Source of the DNA: Pontixanthobacter aestiaquae
GTDB taxonomy: Bacteria > Pseudomonadota > Alphaproteobacteria > Sphingomonadales > Sphingomonadaceae
Direction: 5' to 3'
Length of the DNA: 64,000 nucleotides
Assembly: GCF_009827455.1 (NCBI RefSeq)
Contig: NZ_WTYZ01000001.1
Span: 1,993,001-2,057,000 of the forward strand
Each line of letters starts with the position of its first letter. Within the stretch, counting starts at the first letter, position 1. The position numbers and the translations under genes were made by a program. Under the pieces are notes generated by a model. It was given only the letters and a program-made list of their open reading frames with translations. It was not told the origin of the DNA and did no database searches. This document shows, piece after piece, positions 45,829 to 54,534 of this stretch.

Positions 45829-47352
45829 ATGACCCAAAGTTCTGGCACAATTCTTTCCAATGCAGAGGCCGCGCGGAAACAGTTAAACGCGGGGGACCCT
45901 GCGCTTGTCTGGCGGAAGAGTATTGCCGACACCGAAACGCCGGTTGGCGCGGCGACCAAGCTGATCGAACCGGGACGCGGGGATTTCCTGCTGGAATCCG
46001 TCGAAGGCGGCGAAGTTCGGGGCCGCTTCAGCTTACTTGGTCTTGATCCCGATCTGGTATTTCGTGCCTCTGCCACTAGCGCTGCAATCAACTCAACCTG
46101 GAAACATGACCGCGAGGCATTCGAAGATTGCACCGAGGAAAGCCTGCCAGCGCTGCGCCGCTTGGTACAGGATTGCCGGATCGACGTACCCGAAGAGCTT
46201 CCGCCTGCACTCGCATGTCTGGTCGGCTATTTCGGCTATGAGACCATCGGATTGGTGGAAAAGCTGCCACGCGCGCCAGCGAACCCGCTCGAACTGCCTG
46301 ACATGTTGTTTGTTCGTCCGACACTCATTCTGGTGTTCGACGGACTGACCGAAGAGCTGTTCGCCATCGCCCCGCTATGGGCGGGTCAGGGCGATACGGA
46401 CCGCGAGATAGAACAAGCCGGTGAGCGCATCGATGATGTCCTGCGCAGGCTGGCCCAGCCCAGTCCGGGTTCTGCACGCGCAACTGCTCTGCCAGAGATG
46501 GCGCTCAACCCGACGATGGCCGGCGAAGACTACGCTGCGATGGTCGGAAAGGCGAAGTCTTACATCGAGGCTGGCGACATCTTCCAAGTCGTGCTGGCGC
46601 AGCGCTTTACGTGTCCCTTCCCGCTGCCGCCACTCGCTCTGTATCGGGCTCTGCGCCGCGTAAACCCCTCACCATTTCTGTATTTTCTCGACCTGCCCGG
46701 CTTTGCTGTGGTCGGCTCCAGCCCCGAGATCCTCGTTCGCGTGCGCAATGGTGAAGTGACGATCCGCCCGATTGCAGGAACGCGGCCACGCGGCGAAACG
46801 CCCGCCGCAGACCGCGAGGCGGAGGCCAGCCTGCTCGCCGATGCCAAGGAACGCGCGGAGCATTTGATGTTGCTTGATCTTGGCCGCAATGATGTCGGCC
46901 GCGTCGCCTCAAAAGGCACGGTGGAAGTGACCGACAGCTTCTCGGTCGAGCGCTACAGCCATGTGATGCATATCGTCAGCAATGTTGTCGGCCAACTCGC
47001 TCCGGAACATGACGCGCTCGATGCCATGTTCGCCGGTTTTCCCGCCGGTACGGTCAGCGGCGCACCAAAGATTCGCGCCTGCGAAATCATTGCCGAACTG
47101 GAACCGGAAACGCGCGGTGCCTATGCTGGCGGCGTCGGCTATTTCGCGCCCGATGGCTCTGTCGATAGCTGCATCGTTTTGCGCACCGGCGTTGTGAAAG
47201 ACGGAACGCTGCACGTCCAAGCTGGCGCGGGCATCGTCGCCGATAGCGATGCCGCTTACGAACAGCGCGAATGCGAAGCCAAAGCCAGCGCCCTGATCGC
47301 CGCCGCCAACGAAGCAGCGCGCGTCGCGAGCGAACCGGGATTTGGACAATGA
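45829..47352 (+). CDS. trpE: Anthranilate synthase component I
   Basis: Converts chorismate to anthranilate with ammonia from TrpG. The 507-residue chain has the N-terminal half (GRFSLLGLDPDLVFRA, GYFGYETIGLVEKLP) and the chorismate-binding half: FQVVLAQRFTCPFPLPPLAL, PSPFLYFLDLPGFAVVGSSP, IRPIAGTRPRG, DLGRNDVGRVA and FPAGTVSGAPKIRACEII. The stop overlaps the next gene as ATGA. Three unrelated genes then separate it from trpG, which is 3 kb downstream on the same strand. Confidence 0.98.
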   Translation: MTQSSGTILSNAEAARKQLNAGDPALVWRKSIADTETPVGAATKLIEPGRGDFLLESVEGGEVRGRFSLLGLDPDLVFRASATSAAINSTWKHDREAFEDCTEESLPALRRLVQDCRIDVPEELPPALACLVGYFGYETIGLVEKLPRAPANPLELPDMLFVRPTLILVFDGLTEELFAIAPLWAGQGDTDREIEQAGERIDDVLRRLAQPSPGSARATALPEMALNPTMAGEDYAAMVGKAKSYIEAGDIFQVVLAQRFTCPFPLPPLALYRALRRVNPSPFLYFLDLPGFAVVGSSPEILVRVRNGEVTIRPIAGTRPRGETPAADREAEASLLADAKERAEHLMLLDLGRNDVGRVASKGTVEVTDSFSVERYSHVMHIVSNVVGQLAPEHDALDAMFAGFPAGTVSGAPKIRACEIIAELEPETRGAYAGGVGYFAPDGSVDSCIVLRTGVVKDGTLHVQAGAGIVADSDAAYEQRECEAKASALIAAANEAARVASEPGFGQ

Positions 47353-48161
47353 GAATTCTCGCTTCGTCAGTGATTATTCTGGCGCTTTCAGCCTGCAATC
47401 CCGAACCCGAAGGCGAGCCCGTTTTGCGGACCGAAATCGGCAGCGGCGTGGCGCAGGATACCTCCAAGGCTCCAAAACGCGCTTCTGCCTGTCGCTCGAT
47501 CACGTTCGAGACCATTCCGCTGACCCATTGTATTGCCGATCCGGCAAAACACCGGATCACCACAGCGCTCGGGCCGGATGGCGACGCGCCCTATCGCAGC
47601 CTCGCCAATCTGGCCGCTGGGCGTGCGCCCGATGCGCCGCTGGTCGCGTTTGCGGTGAATGGCGGAATGTTCGGCGAGGAAGGCAAGCCCATCGGTTATT
47701 ACGTCGAGGGGAAAGATCGGCAGAAAGAACTGAACCGCGCTGACGGTATTGGCAATTTCCACCTTAAGCCCAACGGCGTTTTTTACGGCACCGGCAGCGC
47801 ATGGAGTGTCCGCGCAACCGATGATTTCTATTCCAACGTTGGCGACCGCCCGGAGTTCGGAACCCAGTCAGGCCCGATGTTGGTGATCGGCGGAAAGCTG
47901 CATCCGGAAATCGCTGAGGACGGTCCTTCCAAGGCAATCCGCAATGGTGTCGGTGTCGATAACGAAGGTCTCGCGCATTTTGTCATTTCGGACAAGCCGC
48001 TCTCATTCGGCGTGCTGGCGCGCTTTTTCCGCGACGAGCTCAAAACGCCAAATGCGCTGTTTCTGGACGGCAATGTCTCGGCGCTTTGGGACCCCGCAAA
48101 TGACCGGCTGGATCTGGGCGCGGCACTTGGTCCGCTGATCGTCGTCGAGGCAAAGGAATGA
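47349..48161 (+). CDS. Phosphodiester glycosidase-family lipoprotein (NAGPA/DUF2233-like)
   Basis: A 270-residue lipoprotein: signal MRILASSVIILALSAC with lipobox LSAC (Cys16). The mature part has the phosphodiester-glycosidase (NAGPA) signatures: APLVAFAVNGGMFGEEGKP, GNFHLKPNGVFYG, FGTQSGPMLVIGGKLHPE, IRNGVGVDNEGLAHFVIS and ALFLDGNVSALW. Family enzymes cleave sugar-phosphodiester links; the bacterial substrate is often cell-envelope polymer. ATG overlaps the trpE stop (ATGA), so it is coupled to trpE despite having no known link with tryptophan. Confidence 0.86.
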   Translation: MRILASSVIILALSACNPEPEGEPVLRTEIGSGVAQDTSKAPKRASACRSITFETIPLTHCIADPAKHRITTALGPDGDAPYRSLANLAAGRAPDAPLVAFAVNGGMFGEEGKPIGYYVEGKDRQKELNRADGIGNFHLKPNGVFYGTGSAWSVRATDDFYSNVGDRPEFGTQSGPMLVIGGKLHPEIAEDGPSKAIRNGVGVDNEGLAHFVISDKPLSFGVLARFFRDELKTPNALFLDGNVSALWDPANDRLDLGAALGPLIVVEAKE

Positions 48162-48162
48162 T

Positions 48163-49125
48163 ATGATTAGTTACGAACGCACGCTCTATCCGCCCATCGA
48201 ACCCTATGAAACGGGTATGCTCGATGTGGGCGAAGGCCACTCGATCTATTATGAGCGCGTCGGAACACAAGGAGCGAAACCGGCAGTGTTCCTGCATGGC
48301 GGACCAGGCGGCGGCATGGCCCCTCCCCATCGCCAGCAATGGGACCCTAAGCTGTATGACGTGCTGCTGTTCGACCAGCGCGGCTGCGGGCAATCGACAC
48401 CTTTTGCCGAGATCGAGAATAACGACACATGGCGCATCGTCGCCGATATCGAGCGCCTGCGCGAAATGTGCGGACACGATGCATGGCAAGTATTCGGCGG
48501 CAGTTGGGGGTCTACTCTCGCACTCGCCTACTCGCAAAAGCACCCCGAGCGCACCACCGAGATCATCCTGCGCGGTGTGTTTCTTGCTCGCCAACAGGAA
48601 AAGGGCTGGCTGTACCGCTTCGGCGCAAGCCAGATCATGGCCGAGCAATGGGATCAATTCACCGGTCTCATTCCCGAGGATGAGCGCGGCGATCTGGTAA
48701 AAGCCTATCACGACCGCCTGACCAGCGATGATGAGGCAACGCGCCTCGCCGCAGCACGCGAATGGTCGCTATGGGAAGGAACGGTCGCAACCTTGCTGCC
48801 CAACGAAGGCCTGCTGGAAGAGTTCGCCGATCCTTCAAAGGCTCTGCCATTCGCAAGGATTTGCGCCCGCTACTTCCTCGAGGACTTCTATCTGGAAGAG
48901 GCGCAGTTGGTACGCGATCTGCACAAAATCAAAGATATTCCTGGCATTATCGTCCAAGGCCGGCATGACATCTGCACCCCGCCAACTTCTGCATGGGAGC
49001 TTAAGAAGTCATGGCCCGAAGTCGATCTGCGGATCGTGCACGACGCCGGCCACAGTGCGGGCGAACCCGGCATTATTGACGGCTTGGTCCGCGCGACCGA
49101 CGAATTCGCTGGCAAGAAGGCCTGA
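48163..49125 (+). CDS. pip: Proline iminopeptidase
   Basis: An alpha/beta-hydrolase peptidase (S33) removing N-terminal proline. The 320-residue chain has the oxyanion-region motif FLHGGPGGGMAPPHRQ, the nucleophile Ser114 in FGGSWGSTLALAYSQKHPE, DQRGCGQSTP, and the C-terminal Asp and His (GRHDICTPP, HDAGHSAGEPG). The length matches the family. It starts 1 bp after the preceding stop and is separated from the nuclease-like gene by 54 bp, the longest gap in the trp run before the trpD-trpC spacer. Confidence 0.96.
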   Translation: MISYERTLYPPIEPYETGMLDVGEGHSIYYERVGTQGAKPAVFLHGGPGGGMAPPHRQQWDPKLYDVLLFDQRGCGQSTPFAEIENNDTWRIVADIERLREMCGHDAWQVFGGSWGSTLALAYSQKHPERTTEIILRGVFLARQQEKGWLYRFGASQIMAEQWDQFTGLIPEDERGDLVKAYHDRLTSDDEATRLAAAREWSLWEGTVATLLPNEGLLEEFADPSKALPFARICARYFLEDFYLEEAQLVRDLHKIKDIPGIIVQGRHDICTPPTSAWELKKSWPEVDLRIVHDAGHSAGEPGIIDGLVRATDEFAGKKA

Positions 49126-49179
49126 CACACACGCGAGCTTTCCTTGCTTGTGATGAACTAAACCGAGTAACAAAACAGA

Positions 49180-50373
49180 ATGTCCCTGATAGAATTGTCA
49201 AAAGCTAACCCAGATAGTTTCAATGGCTATCGCGCACGGCAAATTGTAGCATTTGCTGGCGACGGCAAGCTCCGTGATAATTCGGATTGCTCATCCCAAT
49301 TGCGGGCATTTCTTACAACCGTTACATCGGAGCAATTATCCGCATATGCTGCCGAGTGCTTAGAAAAGTCCTTTGAGGATAGCGGGCTCGTTCTCCAAGA
49401 CGTCGTAAACGAAATTGGGCGGCGGTTAGAGTTTGAGGTCGATGACGGTCGATATCGAGGAACTCAAAATCAAATTGGATACGACGGACTCTGGCACGTT
49501 CCCGGCAATCCCTCGATCTTGGTGGAGGTAAAAACCACCGATACCTATAACGTGACACTCGACACGATCGCGGCCTACAAACAGAAAGCAATTGAAGCGG
49601 GAATTATTCCACGCAACTCGTCCATTTTGTTCGTCGTTGGTCGAAAAGATACCGGCGCACTCGAAGCGCAAATACGCGGCTCTCGCTATGCATGGGAAAT
49701 GCGCGTCGTGGGTGTTGAGAGCCTTCTAAAACTGATGAAGGTGAAAGAGAAATCAAGCGAAGACCAAACGGTCGCGCAGATTCGAGATCTCTTGCAACCG
49801 TTTGAATACACGCGGGTAGATCGCATTCTCGAGGTTGTCTTTAGCGCAGCCACTGATGCAATTGATTCCGACAGCGCGGAGGCAATTGAAACGGATTCGG
49901 GAACAAGTTCAGAAAAGGCATCACACGAACGGACACCGCGAGAAAAACTCGATGCAATCAGGCAAACTGCAATAGGTGCATTGAATGACAAAAGCGGTTT
50001 AAACCTTGTAAAAAAACGGCAGGCACTGTTCCGTGATCCCATCTCGGACACGAACGCCTGCATTTCAATCTCAAAGCGATACGACGATAACCTACAACCT
50101 TATTGGTATGCTTATCATCCGAGATGGAACGAATTTTTGACGAGCGCTACTGCTGGCTTGATGGTTTTTGCGTGCGTCGACCGGGATGAAGCTTACGCTG
50201 TGCCCGTTGAGCAGATGCAGAAGTTCCTTCCCAGCCTCAACCAGACTGAAAGAGCCGACGGCACTGCGTATTGGCATATCAAATTGACCACAGCCGACGA
50301 CAGATTGGAATTATTTGCTTCCAAGACCGGAGAGAGGTTTGATCTGTCGGAATTTCGAGTGCCATTCCCATGA
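49180..50373 (+). CDS. Two-domain PD-(D/E)XK nuclease-like protein inside the trp run
   Basis: A 397-residue protein I cannot match to a named family. Residues 70-120 look like a PD-(D/E)XK nuclease core: a helix with Glu79 (VVNEIGRRL), Asp102 in [11 protein letters not shown], then Glu116-x-Lys118 in [12 protein letters not shown], followed by a helix ([12 protein letters not shown]) and strand ([12 protein letters not shown]). A Ser/Asp/Glu-rich linker (about 225-250) leads to a second domain, 265-397, rich in aromatic residues ([19 protein letters not shown]). Hand counts of three 60-base lines give 47-50% G+C against 60% for a line in trpD, so it looks acquired. Its stop overlaps the trpG start (ATGA). 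Role unknown; restriction or defence is possible. Confidence 0.75.
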
Positions 50374-50969
50374 TCCTCGTCATCGACAATTACGACAGTT
50401 TCACTTTCAACCTGGTCCATTATCTGATGGAACTGGGCGCCGAGGTGCAGGTCGAGCGCAACGATGCTATCTCTGCTGCCGGTGCGATTGCGACCGGTGC
50501 AGAGGGTTTTCTGATCTCTCCTGGACCGTGCACACCCAATGAAGCGGGCGTTAGTCTGGATCTGGTTGCCGCCTGTGCGGATGCCGAAAAGCCGTTGCTC
50601 GGCGTATGTTTGGGGCATCAGTCGATTGGACAGCATTTTGGCGGCACGGTCGTTCGTGGCGGGTTGATGCATGGTAAAACGTCGCCGGTTACGCATGACG
50701 GAACGGGTGTGTTTGCCGGCCTGCCCTCGCCTTACACCGCAACCCGCTATCACTCGCTGATTGTCGAGAATATTCCTAACGCTCTGGCGGTAAATGCGAG
50801 CAGCGATACGCCGGGCATTGAAGGCGATTGCGTGATGGGCTTCCGTCATCAGACGCTGCCAATTCACGGCGTACAATTTCATCCGGAAAGCATCGCGACC
50901 GAGCATGGCCACGCGTTGCTTGCGAATTTCCTGCGCATTTGCGGGATCGAACCGAAAGATATTTCATGA
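50370..50969 (+). CDS. trpG: Anthranilate/aminodeoxychorismate synthase component II (TrpG)
   Basis: Glutamine amidotransferase subunit, 199 residues. [15 protein letters not shown] at the N-terminus, [12 protein letters not shown], nucleophile Cys80 in [24 protein letters not shown], and the His-Glu pair in [11 protein letters not shown]. It supplies ammonia to TrpE and may serve PabB as well, as in many single-copy cases. ATG overlaps the nuclease-like gene (ATGA) and its stop overlaps trpD (ATGA). Confidence 0.97.
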
Positions 50970-51958
50970 AGACGCTCCCGCTCGAAGTCCCGCATATGAA
51001 TGCGCAGGAGGCCGAGGAGGTCTTCGGCTGGATACTCGATGGGGAAGCAAGCGAAGAGGAAATCGCGCGCTTCCTGCTCGCAATGACCGAACGCAGCGAG
51101 ACCGCGGACGAAATCGCTGGTGCAGCGCGCGCTTTGCGGGCACGGCTCATTCCGATCAAAGCCCCCGAAAATGCCATCGATGTATGCGGAACCGGCGGCG
51201 ACGGTCATCACACATTGAACGTGTCGACCGCCGTTTCGCTGGTTGTTGCCGCAACCGGCGTTCCGGTGGCCAAGCATGGTAATCGTGCCGCCTCCTCCAA
51301 GTCCGGTGCAGCCGATACGCTCGAAGCGCTTGGGTTGGATATGGATGTCGCGGGTGAAACTGCCGAGAAGACTCTGGCCGAACTTGGCATTTGCTTCCTG
51401 TTCGCGAAGAACCATCACCCCGCGATGGGCCGCATTCAACCGATCCGGTTGAAACTTGGCCGGCGAACGATTTTCAATCTGATGGGCCCGCTATCCAATC
51501 CGGCTGGCGTTAAGAGCCAACTCATTGGTATCGCGCGCCCTGCCTATGTGCCGATCTATGCTGCGGCCAAGGCTGCTCTGGGTACCGAACGGACGATGAT
51601 TGTTTCCGGCGATGAAGGCTTGGACGAATTGAGCCTGGCCGGCGGTAACGAGGTCGCCGATGTGCGCGGCAATGCGTTTGAGATGAAGCGCGTCGAGGCG
51701 TCGATGATTGGCGTTCCCAATGCGCCGGTGGAAGCCATTCGCGGCGATGACGCAAAACATAACGCGGCGGCGCTCAAAGCTCTGCTGGACGGTAATCCCG
51801 GACCCTATCGCGACGCGGTGATCTTCAATTCTGCAGCGTCGCTACTCGTTGCAGGTACAGCGAAGGACTGGAACGACGGAGCGGACCAAGCACGCGAGGC
51901 GCTCGATTCGGGTGGAGCGCGTGATCTGCTAAAGCGGTGGATTGCGATGACGAAATGA
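50966..51958 (+). CDS. trpD: Anthranilate phosphoribosyltransferase
   Basis: Transfers phosphoribose to anthranilate. The 330-residue protein has the PRPP motif [17 protein letters not shown], the [21 protein letters not shown] segment (shown as [15 protein letters not shown]), [14 protein letters not shown] and [14 protein letters not shown] at 50966 overlaps the trpG stop (ATGA); longer in-frame readings into trpG were rejected. A 133-bp gap with a palindromic repeat separates it from trpC. Confidence 0.98.
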
Positions 51959-52091: not shown

Positions 52092-52877
52092 ATGAACAAA
52101 TTGGACGAAATCTGCGCAACCAAGCGTACGGAAGTCGCCGTGCGCAAAGCTGCGACAACAGTCGCTGAGCTAGAGTCCAGAGCTCGCAAACAAAGCACAC
52201 CACGCGGCTTTCGTGCGGCTTTGGAAGCTAAAACAACTTTAGGCTACGGCCTCATCGCTGAAATCAAAAAGGCTTCCCCGTCCAAAGGTCTAATCCGCGA
52301 GGACTTTCGCCCCGCTGACCATGCGAAAGCCTACGAAGAAGGCGGCGCAGCATGCCTTTCGGTGCTGACCGATGCACCATACTTCCAAGGGCATGAGGAC
52401 TATCTGGTTGAAGCCCGTGCAGCGTGTGATCTGCCCGCGTTGCGCAAGGATTTTATGGTCGACCCATGGCAAGTTGCCGAGGCGCGTGCAATCGGTGCCG
52501 ATGCGATCCTGATTATCGTCGCCGCGCTGGAAGACAGCGCGATGGAAGAGATCGAAGCCGCCTCCATCCATTACGGTATGGATGTGCTGGTCGAAGTCCA
52601 CAATGAGGCAGAGATGGAGCGCGCAGCCAAATTAAAGTCGCGCCTAATCGGGGTAAACAATCGCGATCTGAAGCGGTTTGTGACCGATCTGGGTGTGACC
52701 GAACGGCTGTCTAAGCTGGCTCCAGAGGGGACTCTGCTGGTGGGCGAAAGCGGCATCAGCACGCACGAAGACTGCGAGCGGCTCGAAAAGTCGGGTGTCC
52801 GCGCATTTCTTGTCGGTGAGAGCCTGATGCGGCAAGCGGATGTTGCGGCAGCAACGCGAAAGTTGCTGCAGGGATGA
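52092..52877 (+). CDS. trpC: Indole-3-glycerol phosphate synthase
   Basis: Ring-closing step of tryptophan synthesis, 261 residues. [78 protein letters not shown], and the phosphate-binding LLVGESGIS with [13 protein letters not shown]. TrpF is not fused, as is usual in alphaproteobacteria. ATG at 52092; upstream in-frame readings run through the repeat element and are rejected. The stop overlaps moaC (ATGA). Confidence 0.98.
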
Positions 52878-53347: not shown

Positions 53348-54534
53348 AGCCGCCCATTCCCTTGCACGAAGCGCAGGCGCGGCTGCTGGATCTGGTTCAA
53401 CCAACTGCGACCGAAACCGTTAGCTGCGAAGATGCTCTTGGCCGGTATCTGGCCGCGCCGCTGATCGCCAAACGCACACAGCCCGCAGCTGATCTCTCAG
53501 CGATGGACGGGTTTGCTGTCTCTGGCGAAGGTTCTTGGCGCGTGATCGGCGAAAGCCGCTGCGGTGTGCCGTTCGGCGGCTCAGTTTCCGCAGGAGAGGC
53601 AACGCGCATATCGACCGGTGCGCATGTGCCAAAGGGTGCCGAGGCGATTGTGCTGGTTGAAGACGCGAAACTGGCCTCAGGCAACCAATTGACCGCGACC
53701 GAAGAGCCAATATCCGGCCGTCATATCAGACGCGCAGGATCTGACTTCGAAACGGGTGCGCATTTGCTTGAAACCGGCACCCGGATCACCGCCGCGCGGC
53801 TGGCCCTGACGCGGATGGCGGGGCATAGCTCGCTCACCGTTCACACCGCACCCGAGGTGGCGATACTCGAATGCGGCGATGAACTTTCAACCATGCCCCA
53901 TATGTGCAACATTGATCAAATTCCCGCCACCAACGGTGCAATGTTAAGTGCAATGACTTTAACCGAAAAAGTGGTAGTGCAGACTTCGCCGCCAATTCCC
54001 GATAATCTGGATGCATTGGCTGCCACTATAGAAACTTATTCCGGAACTAATTTGTTAATCATCAGCGGTGGTGCTTCTGTCGGTGATCATGACCTGGTTC
54101 GCCCGGCATTGCACAGACTGGGCGCAAAAATAGACTTCTGGCGAGTCGCAATGAAGCCTGGAAAACCTCTGATGGTGGCGACACGCGGGAAGCAGATAAT
54201 TCTTGGACTGCCAGGTAATCCCGTTTCGAGCTACGTGACCGGGTTCCTGTTTATGCTCCCGGCGCTTCGCAGGTTACTGGGCGCCAAGGAGTGCATTCCA
54301 AACCCGATAAGCTTGCCCTGCTATGAGGATTTACCCGCCGGCGGCCCTCGCCGAACCTTTATGCGCGCTACGTTTGGCGAAGGGCAAGTAACGCCTATAG
54401 CCCAGCAGGGTAGCGGTGCACTCGGTGCTTTGGCACAGGCAGATGTCCTGATCGAACGCCCTGAGCACTGCGGTGTGACCAAATCCGGAGCGCATGTACC
54501 AGTCTATATTCTACCGACGAGCGGCGTGGCTTGA
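53344..54534 (+). CDS. moeA: Molybdopterin molybdenumtransferase MoeA
   Basis: Inserts molybdate into adenylylated molybdopterin. The 396-residue protein has [11 protein letters not shown] at the start, the MoeA domain II region [50 protein letters not shown], the [11 protein letters not shown] loop and [20 protein letters not shown] with [12 protein letters not shown] at 53344 overlaps the moaC stop. It is the last gene before the lexA promoter. The C-terminal domain IV is present. Confidence 0.96.

Follow-up and report, generated by a model that had tools for sequence, protein, structure and literature searches.

What does a predicted nuclease gene do within the tryptophan operon of Pontixanthobacter aestiaquae? 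The gene lies in a 64,000-nucleotide stretch of contig NZ_WTYZ01000001.1 (assembly GCF_009827455.1, positions 1,993,001 to 2,057,000 of the forward strand), here called the window. A preliminary description of this DNA had viewed it as a possible lone restriction or modification-dependent nuclease. According to our analysis, its product is most likely an anti-phage enzyme that cuts DNA as a single protein and belongs to a family without a name. The earlier idea of a lone nuclease gains weight from a C-terminal domain in common with GmrSD-like proteins and from defense genes near some relatives, although defense activity itself is inferred. The gene and its parts are as follows.

49180..50373, + strand: two-domain predicted nuclease gene, an open reading frame from ATG to TGA encoding 397 amino acids, with 2721 homologues
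49180..49803, + strand: N-terminal PD-(D/E)XK nuclease domain, residues 1-208
49411..49413, + strand: E78, the first-helix glutamate
49483..49485, + strand: D102, the PD motif aspartate
49525..49533, + strand: E116-x-K118, the ExK motif, in strand 113-118 of the predicted model
49810..49923, + strand: low-confidence linker, residues 211-248, with a predicted local distance difference test score (pLDDT) below 50 in the model
49921..50370, + strand: C-terminal domain, residues 248-397, a nuclease-like fold with no invariant acidic residue, likely a DNA reader

The N-terminal domain almost certainly adopts a nuclease fold. Its predicted structure contains the PD-(D/E)XK core proposed in the preliminary description, and its best fold matches are the type II enzymes HindIII, N.BspD6I, and FokI. 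As E78, D102, E116, and K118 are identical in 120/120 aligned sequences, the window's own included, the E...D...ExK motif is no chance match; 36 further positions are invariant in the same alignment, counting columns with residues in 100 rows or more. The model, the fold matches, and the alignment together place the protein in the PD-(D/E)XK superfamily, with both core fold and catalytic motif. Of the residues first named, D102, E116, and K118 stand, whereas the glutamate of the helix lies at position 78, position 79 being Ile. YTH readers of N6-methyladenosine (m6A) also appear in the Foldseek lists (E 0.2-1.2, probability up to 0.16) and were not used.

With 2721 proteins matching at E<=1e-3 (120 of them listed), the nuclease belongs to a real protein family, and the listed homologues whose source name can be read are all annotated as hypothetical protein. 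The family lacks a name in the libraries searched: the protein matches zero families of Pfam, NCBIfam, or PADLOC 2.0.0 at E<=10, including any PADLOC system protein model. Pfam searches with 28 homologues brought up weak matches to 18 families, the commonest being a vitamin K carboxylase domain (17/28, best 0.0013), which we treated as chance. RecU (0.011) and REase-ARP (0.25), each from one homologue, fit a nuclease fold and were too weak to use, and the single match in PDB sequence searches with the nuclease (E 1.3 and 0.63) was likewise set aside. No relatives were found in phage and plasmid records searched with the window protein, or in viral contigs searched with the protein and with its alignment; the divergent relative L030, as a plasmid query, matched one short archaeal fragment. 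Among the titles and abstract openings listed for trp operons, type IV/GmrSD restriction, and defense hotspots, which are known in general (excerpt of PMC10250203), none describes this gene or a trp-borne nuclease.

The fold of the C-terminal domain was not foreseen in the preliminary description. Among the matches listed, it resembles nucleases (Hjc resolvases, I-Ssp6803I, and the BisI family) and shows no resemblance to CARF or other ligand-sensing folds. No acidic residue of the domain is invariant in the family, and catalysis has probably been lost. The same domain ends 20 DUF262-DUF1524 proteins, the architecture of the GmrSD-family type IV enzymes (GmrSD, BrxU, SspE). When the C-terminal portion of a DUF262 protein from Microvirga (L044) served as query, 16 proteins were retrieved, that of L044 included, all with DUF262 and DUF1524, and a second search, with one of those 16 as query, yielded four more. 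As both searches admit solely proteins of similar total length, other architectures with this domain may exist. Compared directly, the L044 protein and the window's C-terminal domain are 34% identical across 140 residues (E 4e-23). A common signature emerges when 8 of the 20 are aligned with members of the nuclease family. To our knowledge, the domain is unfamiliar from characterized GmrSD enzymes. The GmrSD-family effector is a ParB-like nucleoside triphosphatase plus HNH, in contrast to the PD-(D/E)XK domain found here; neither DUF262 nor DUF1524 was matched by Pfam in the nuclease or the 28 homologues, and the extra C-terminal domain alone is common to both groups. Because one module is found on two unrelated nuclease effectors, we infer a recognition role for it. 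The Microvirga gene (L044 6093-8516) lies near NsnA-like and Vsr-like genes, and the P. aestiaquae genome has one DUF262 (GmrSD_N) match elsewhere, at G000:C1:496779-497255.

In the mechanism we propose, the N-terminal domain would cut DNA: D102, E116, and probably E78 would coordinate the metal, and K118 would serve as the catalytic lysine. The C-terminal domain would bind the DNA that triggers cutting. The trigger would most plausibly be a modification or a short sequence feature on phage DNA that is absent from host DNA, base modification being favored. A partner methyltransferase would be unneeded, because the C-terminal domain would read a feature that host DNA lacks. Taken as a whole, a stand-alone restriction-type nuclease that cuts with its N-terminal domain, reads DNA with its C-terminal domain, and travels as accessory cargo of the trpE-trpG interval is the account we somewhat favor. 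A role in defense, considered by itself, is quite likely; dependence on modification is plausible and distinctly less secure.

The known systems nearest to this protein differ from it in several respects. The type II enzymes HindIII and N.BspD6I and the FokI cleavage domain are alike in N-terminal fold, but identity is 7-15% and the PDB sequence search does not reach them. The protein here has in addition a C-terminal nuclease-like domain, and no methyltransferase is found in the six flanking genes scanned with Pfam (trpE, NAGPA, the hydrolase, trpG, trpD, and trpC), the rest of the genome not having been searched for one. The BisI family of modification-dependent nucleases (NhoI, Eco15I), which read 5mC with a catalytic PD-(D/E)XK domain, matches the C-terminal fold at 12% identity, tied with I-Ssp6803I and Hjc; its counterpart domain cuts DNA (excerpt of PMC11347163), whereas no acidic residue is invariant in the domain described here. 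Shedu and Upx are defense proteins with PD-(D/E)XK domains whose second domain differs, and they are matched neither by the nuclease in Pfam or PADLOC nor by the 28 homologues in Pfam. The nuclease domain of Shedu is DUF4263, to which the protein gave no Pfam match.

The same comparisons bear on a different account, a stand-alone nuclease, either type II-like or structure-specific, that recognizes an unmodified sequence or a DNA structure; the host would be protected by a lack of sites or by regulation, and not through recognition of a modification. The N-terminal matches to HindIII, N.BspD6I, and FokI would suit such an enzyme, as would the C-terminal resemblance to Hjc resolvases and I-Ssp6803I. 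We nevertheless consider it unlikely, given the lack of a methyltransferase in the flanking genes scanned and a C-terminal domain in common with GmrSD-like proteins, GmrSD and BrxU being enzymes that act on modified cytosines (excerpt of PMC10952713). An abortive-infection or stress nuclease, which would cut both host and phage nucleic acid upon recognition of a protein, nucleotide, or RNA signal of infection by the C-terminal domain, is improbable, as that domain resembles DNA-cutting nuclease folds and not ligand-sensing ones among the matches listed.

How the proposed stand-alone nuclease relates to its surroundings can be followed in the operon, where the gene order first described agrees with the Pfam assignments.

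45829..47352, + strand: trpE (PF04715/PF00425)
47349..48161, + strand: phosphodiester glycosidase (NAGPA) gene (PF09992); start uncertain, reading frame open from 47271
48163..49125, + strand: alpha/beta hydrolase gene (PF00561), the pip of the preliminary description
49150..49179, no strand given: left junction; similarity to congener L003, whose pip-trpG site is empty, ends at ~49150, followed by ~30 nt of the window's own leader
50366..50373, + strand: right junction; similarity to L003 restarts at ~50366
50370..50969, + strand: trpG (PF00117, GATase)
50969..51958, + strand: trpD (PF00591)
52092..52877, + strand: trpC (PF00218)

The stop of the nuclease gene overlaps the trpG start, as had been noted, with TGA and ATG sharing 4 nt (ATGA, 50370-50373). 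ATGA overlaps are associated with translational coupling, and this one suggests that trpG translation is coupled to that of the nuclease gene, which should be co-expressed with the trp operon. The A+T-rich contrast with the neighbors is also real: the gene has a G+C content (GC) of 49.1%, against 56.1% for the whole window, and 400-nt windows around it (44 to 54.4 kb) mostly have 54-63% (52% at 53800), so that the 60% initially given for the neighbors is slightly high.

The gene is accessory. It occurs in 1 of 60 relatives' genomes, 2 of 396 of the order, and 5 of 397 of the family, which refutes universal conservation; in the genera of L014, L015, and L016, it is found in 1/13, 2/195, and 1/80 genomes, respectively. 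These counts include the genome around which each set was built, and the sets of order, family, and relatives overlap. The nearest congener, L003, whose trpG is 95% identical, carries pip and trpG in that order, 60 bp apart; the same order occurs in two further congeners, L005 and L008, and in L063, a member of the same family. The expectation that relatives have pip directly followed by trpG holds for three of seven congeners, whereas in the other four the gene ahead of trpG is NAGPA, with pip absent from that position. L003 and L005 share a conserved stretch of the spacer at the empty site that the window lacks, suggesting gain of the gene in the window lineage rather than loss in the congeners. 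Recent import of flanking DNA along with the gene left no sign, since identity to L003 (0.82-0.87 on the left, 0.77-0.93 on the right) has no step at the junctions.

Residence in the trp operon recurs, which the preliminary description had not foreseen. A genome-collection scan for relatives gave 33 loci, and a tblastn comparison with the window's trp genes as queries, run on all loci and on L062 (G708), places the nuclease between trpE and trpG in the window, L014, L015, L016, and L062, i.e., in all five members of one subclade with readable context. A single genus search gave both L015 and L062, and L016 has just the end of trpE on its contig, as read from the sequence. The subclade has Shimodaira-Hasegawa approximate likelihood ratio test (SH-aLRT) support of 99 in a 22-row tree and 99/96 in a 46-row tree. 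The nuclease starts 8-9 nt after the trpE stop in L014, L015, L016, and L062, and its end overlaps trpG by 4 nt in the window, L015, L016, and L062, with other genes lying between the two in L014. Loci outside the subclade have no trp gene match by tblastn within the available flanks, some of them short. GC of the nuclease gene is below that of the flanks in 19 of 21 loci measured, e.g., 46% versus 68% in L015, the exceptions being L030 and L033.

The trpE-trpG interval itself (window 47352-50370; L003-L009, L063-L088) ranges from 0 nt, with the trpE stop overlapping the trpG start, to >1.3 kb. Among 33 gene-free genomes examined (26 plus the 7 congeners), all of which keep trpG, the gap is 0-14 nt in four (L075, L078, L080, and L086), 317 nt in L081, and 260 nt in L083. 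The rest have NAGPA, NAGPA plus pip, another alpha/beta hydrolase, or a bestrophin-like or DUF3089 gene before trpG, or a trpE not resolved within 1.5 kb; cargo was named by Pfam for L072, L073, and L076 and by tblastn or reading for the others. As interval content varies, the nuclease is one among several cargoes of this site.

Tentatively, we propose an undescribed one-protein family in which an active PD-(D/E)XK domain is joined to a catalytically lost nuclease fold serving as an exchangeable reader, also used by GmrSD-like enzymes. One subclade would have settled in the Sphingomonadaceae trpE-trpG interval, spreading by homologous recombination via the flanking core genes without a mobile element of its own, with expression tied to tryptophan biosynthesis. 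Recombination through trpE and trpG is a natural reading of this spread. Four copies compared pairwise, with 61-65% identity for the nuclease in all pairs and 78-84% for trpG, imply old divergence and no recent exchange among them. Several observations weigh against parts of this proposal. First, one acidic residue of the C-terminal domain, D334, comes close to invariance. Second, the identity profile to L003 reveals no recombination tract, and the trees cannot tell a single old insertion from multiple ones, as genomic context is available for only a minority of subclade members. Third, among the four copies, the window's trpE and trpC are closest to L015 (75.5% and 79.6%) and its nuclease to L014 (65.2%), which makes strict co-inheritance with the trp genes doubtful. 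Finally, L038, L041, L042, and L043 give split matches and may be broken genes.

Outside the trp subclade, most neighbors are different at each locus, consistent with a one-gene unit. Some do recur: a resolvase-like gene at five loci (L028, L030, L033, L037, and L044), a four-gene set common to L038 and L044, and a few other pairs. A sample of 130 neighbor proteins, up to three per side at 26 loci, matched 189 PADLOC models at 1e-5, a count inflated by related models. When 27 hand-picked proteins (26 distinct; five outside the 130) were tested individually at E<1e-10, 13 matched defense models, all within ~6 kb of the relative and at 8 of the 30 loci L017-L046, a subset of which was tested.

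L024: LmuB, LmuA
L028: C3a187/GajB-like, PDC-M28C
L030: type II methyltransferase
L031: ZorA
L032: PDC-M37B/DolB-like
L038: DNA methylase, Vsr, NsnA
L044: NsnA
L045: type I restriction and methyltransferase subunits beside the remnant at this locus

Counted without a background rate, this neighborhood is support for defense, not proof. The four neighbors shared by L038 and L044 (in L038 including a cytosine methylase, Vsr, and an NsnA-like protein) adjoin two different reader-domain proteins. The nucleases of L030 and L033, from Sphingomonas gellani and a gammaproteobacterial metagenome-assembled genome, are nearly identical (tree distance ~0.04), each followed by a resolvase-like gene, which reflects either recent transfer or a binning error.

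A non-defense nuclease for repair, RNA processing, or trp operon regulation in the trp-borne subclade could draw on the unusually stable operon link (5/5 members with readable context), but it is very improbable in view of the loci outside the subclade without a trp match in the available flanks, the absence of the gene from most genomes searched while the 33 checked retain trpG, and the defense genes near some relatives.

If the proposed family is real in this form, it would add a large (2721 homologues), unmodelled single-gene restriction family to the defense catalogue, and a nuclease fold would have been reused as a DNA reader on both PD-(D/E)XK and GmrSD-type effectors. It would also mean that a defense-type gene is housed in a core biosynthetic operon, not in an island or mobile element, a site that guilt-by-association searches of defense islands would miss.
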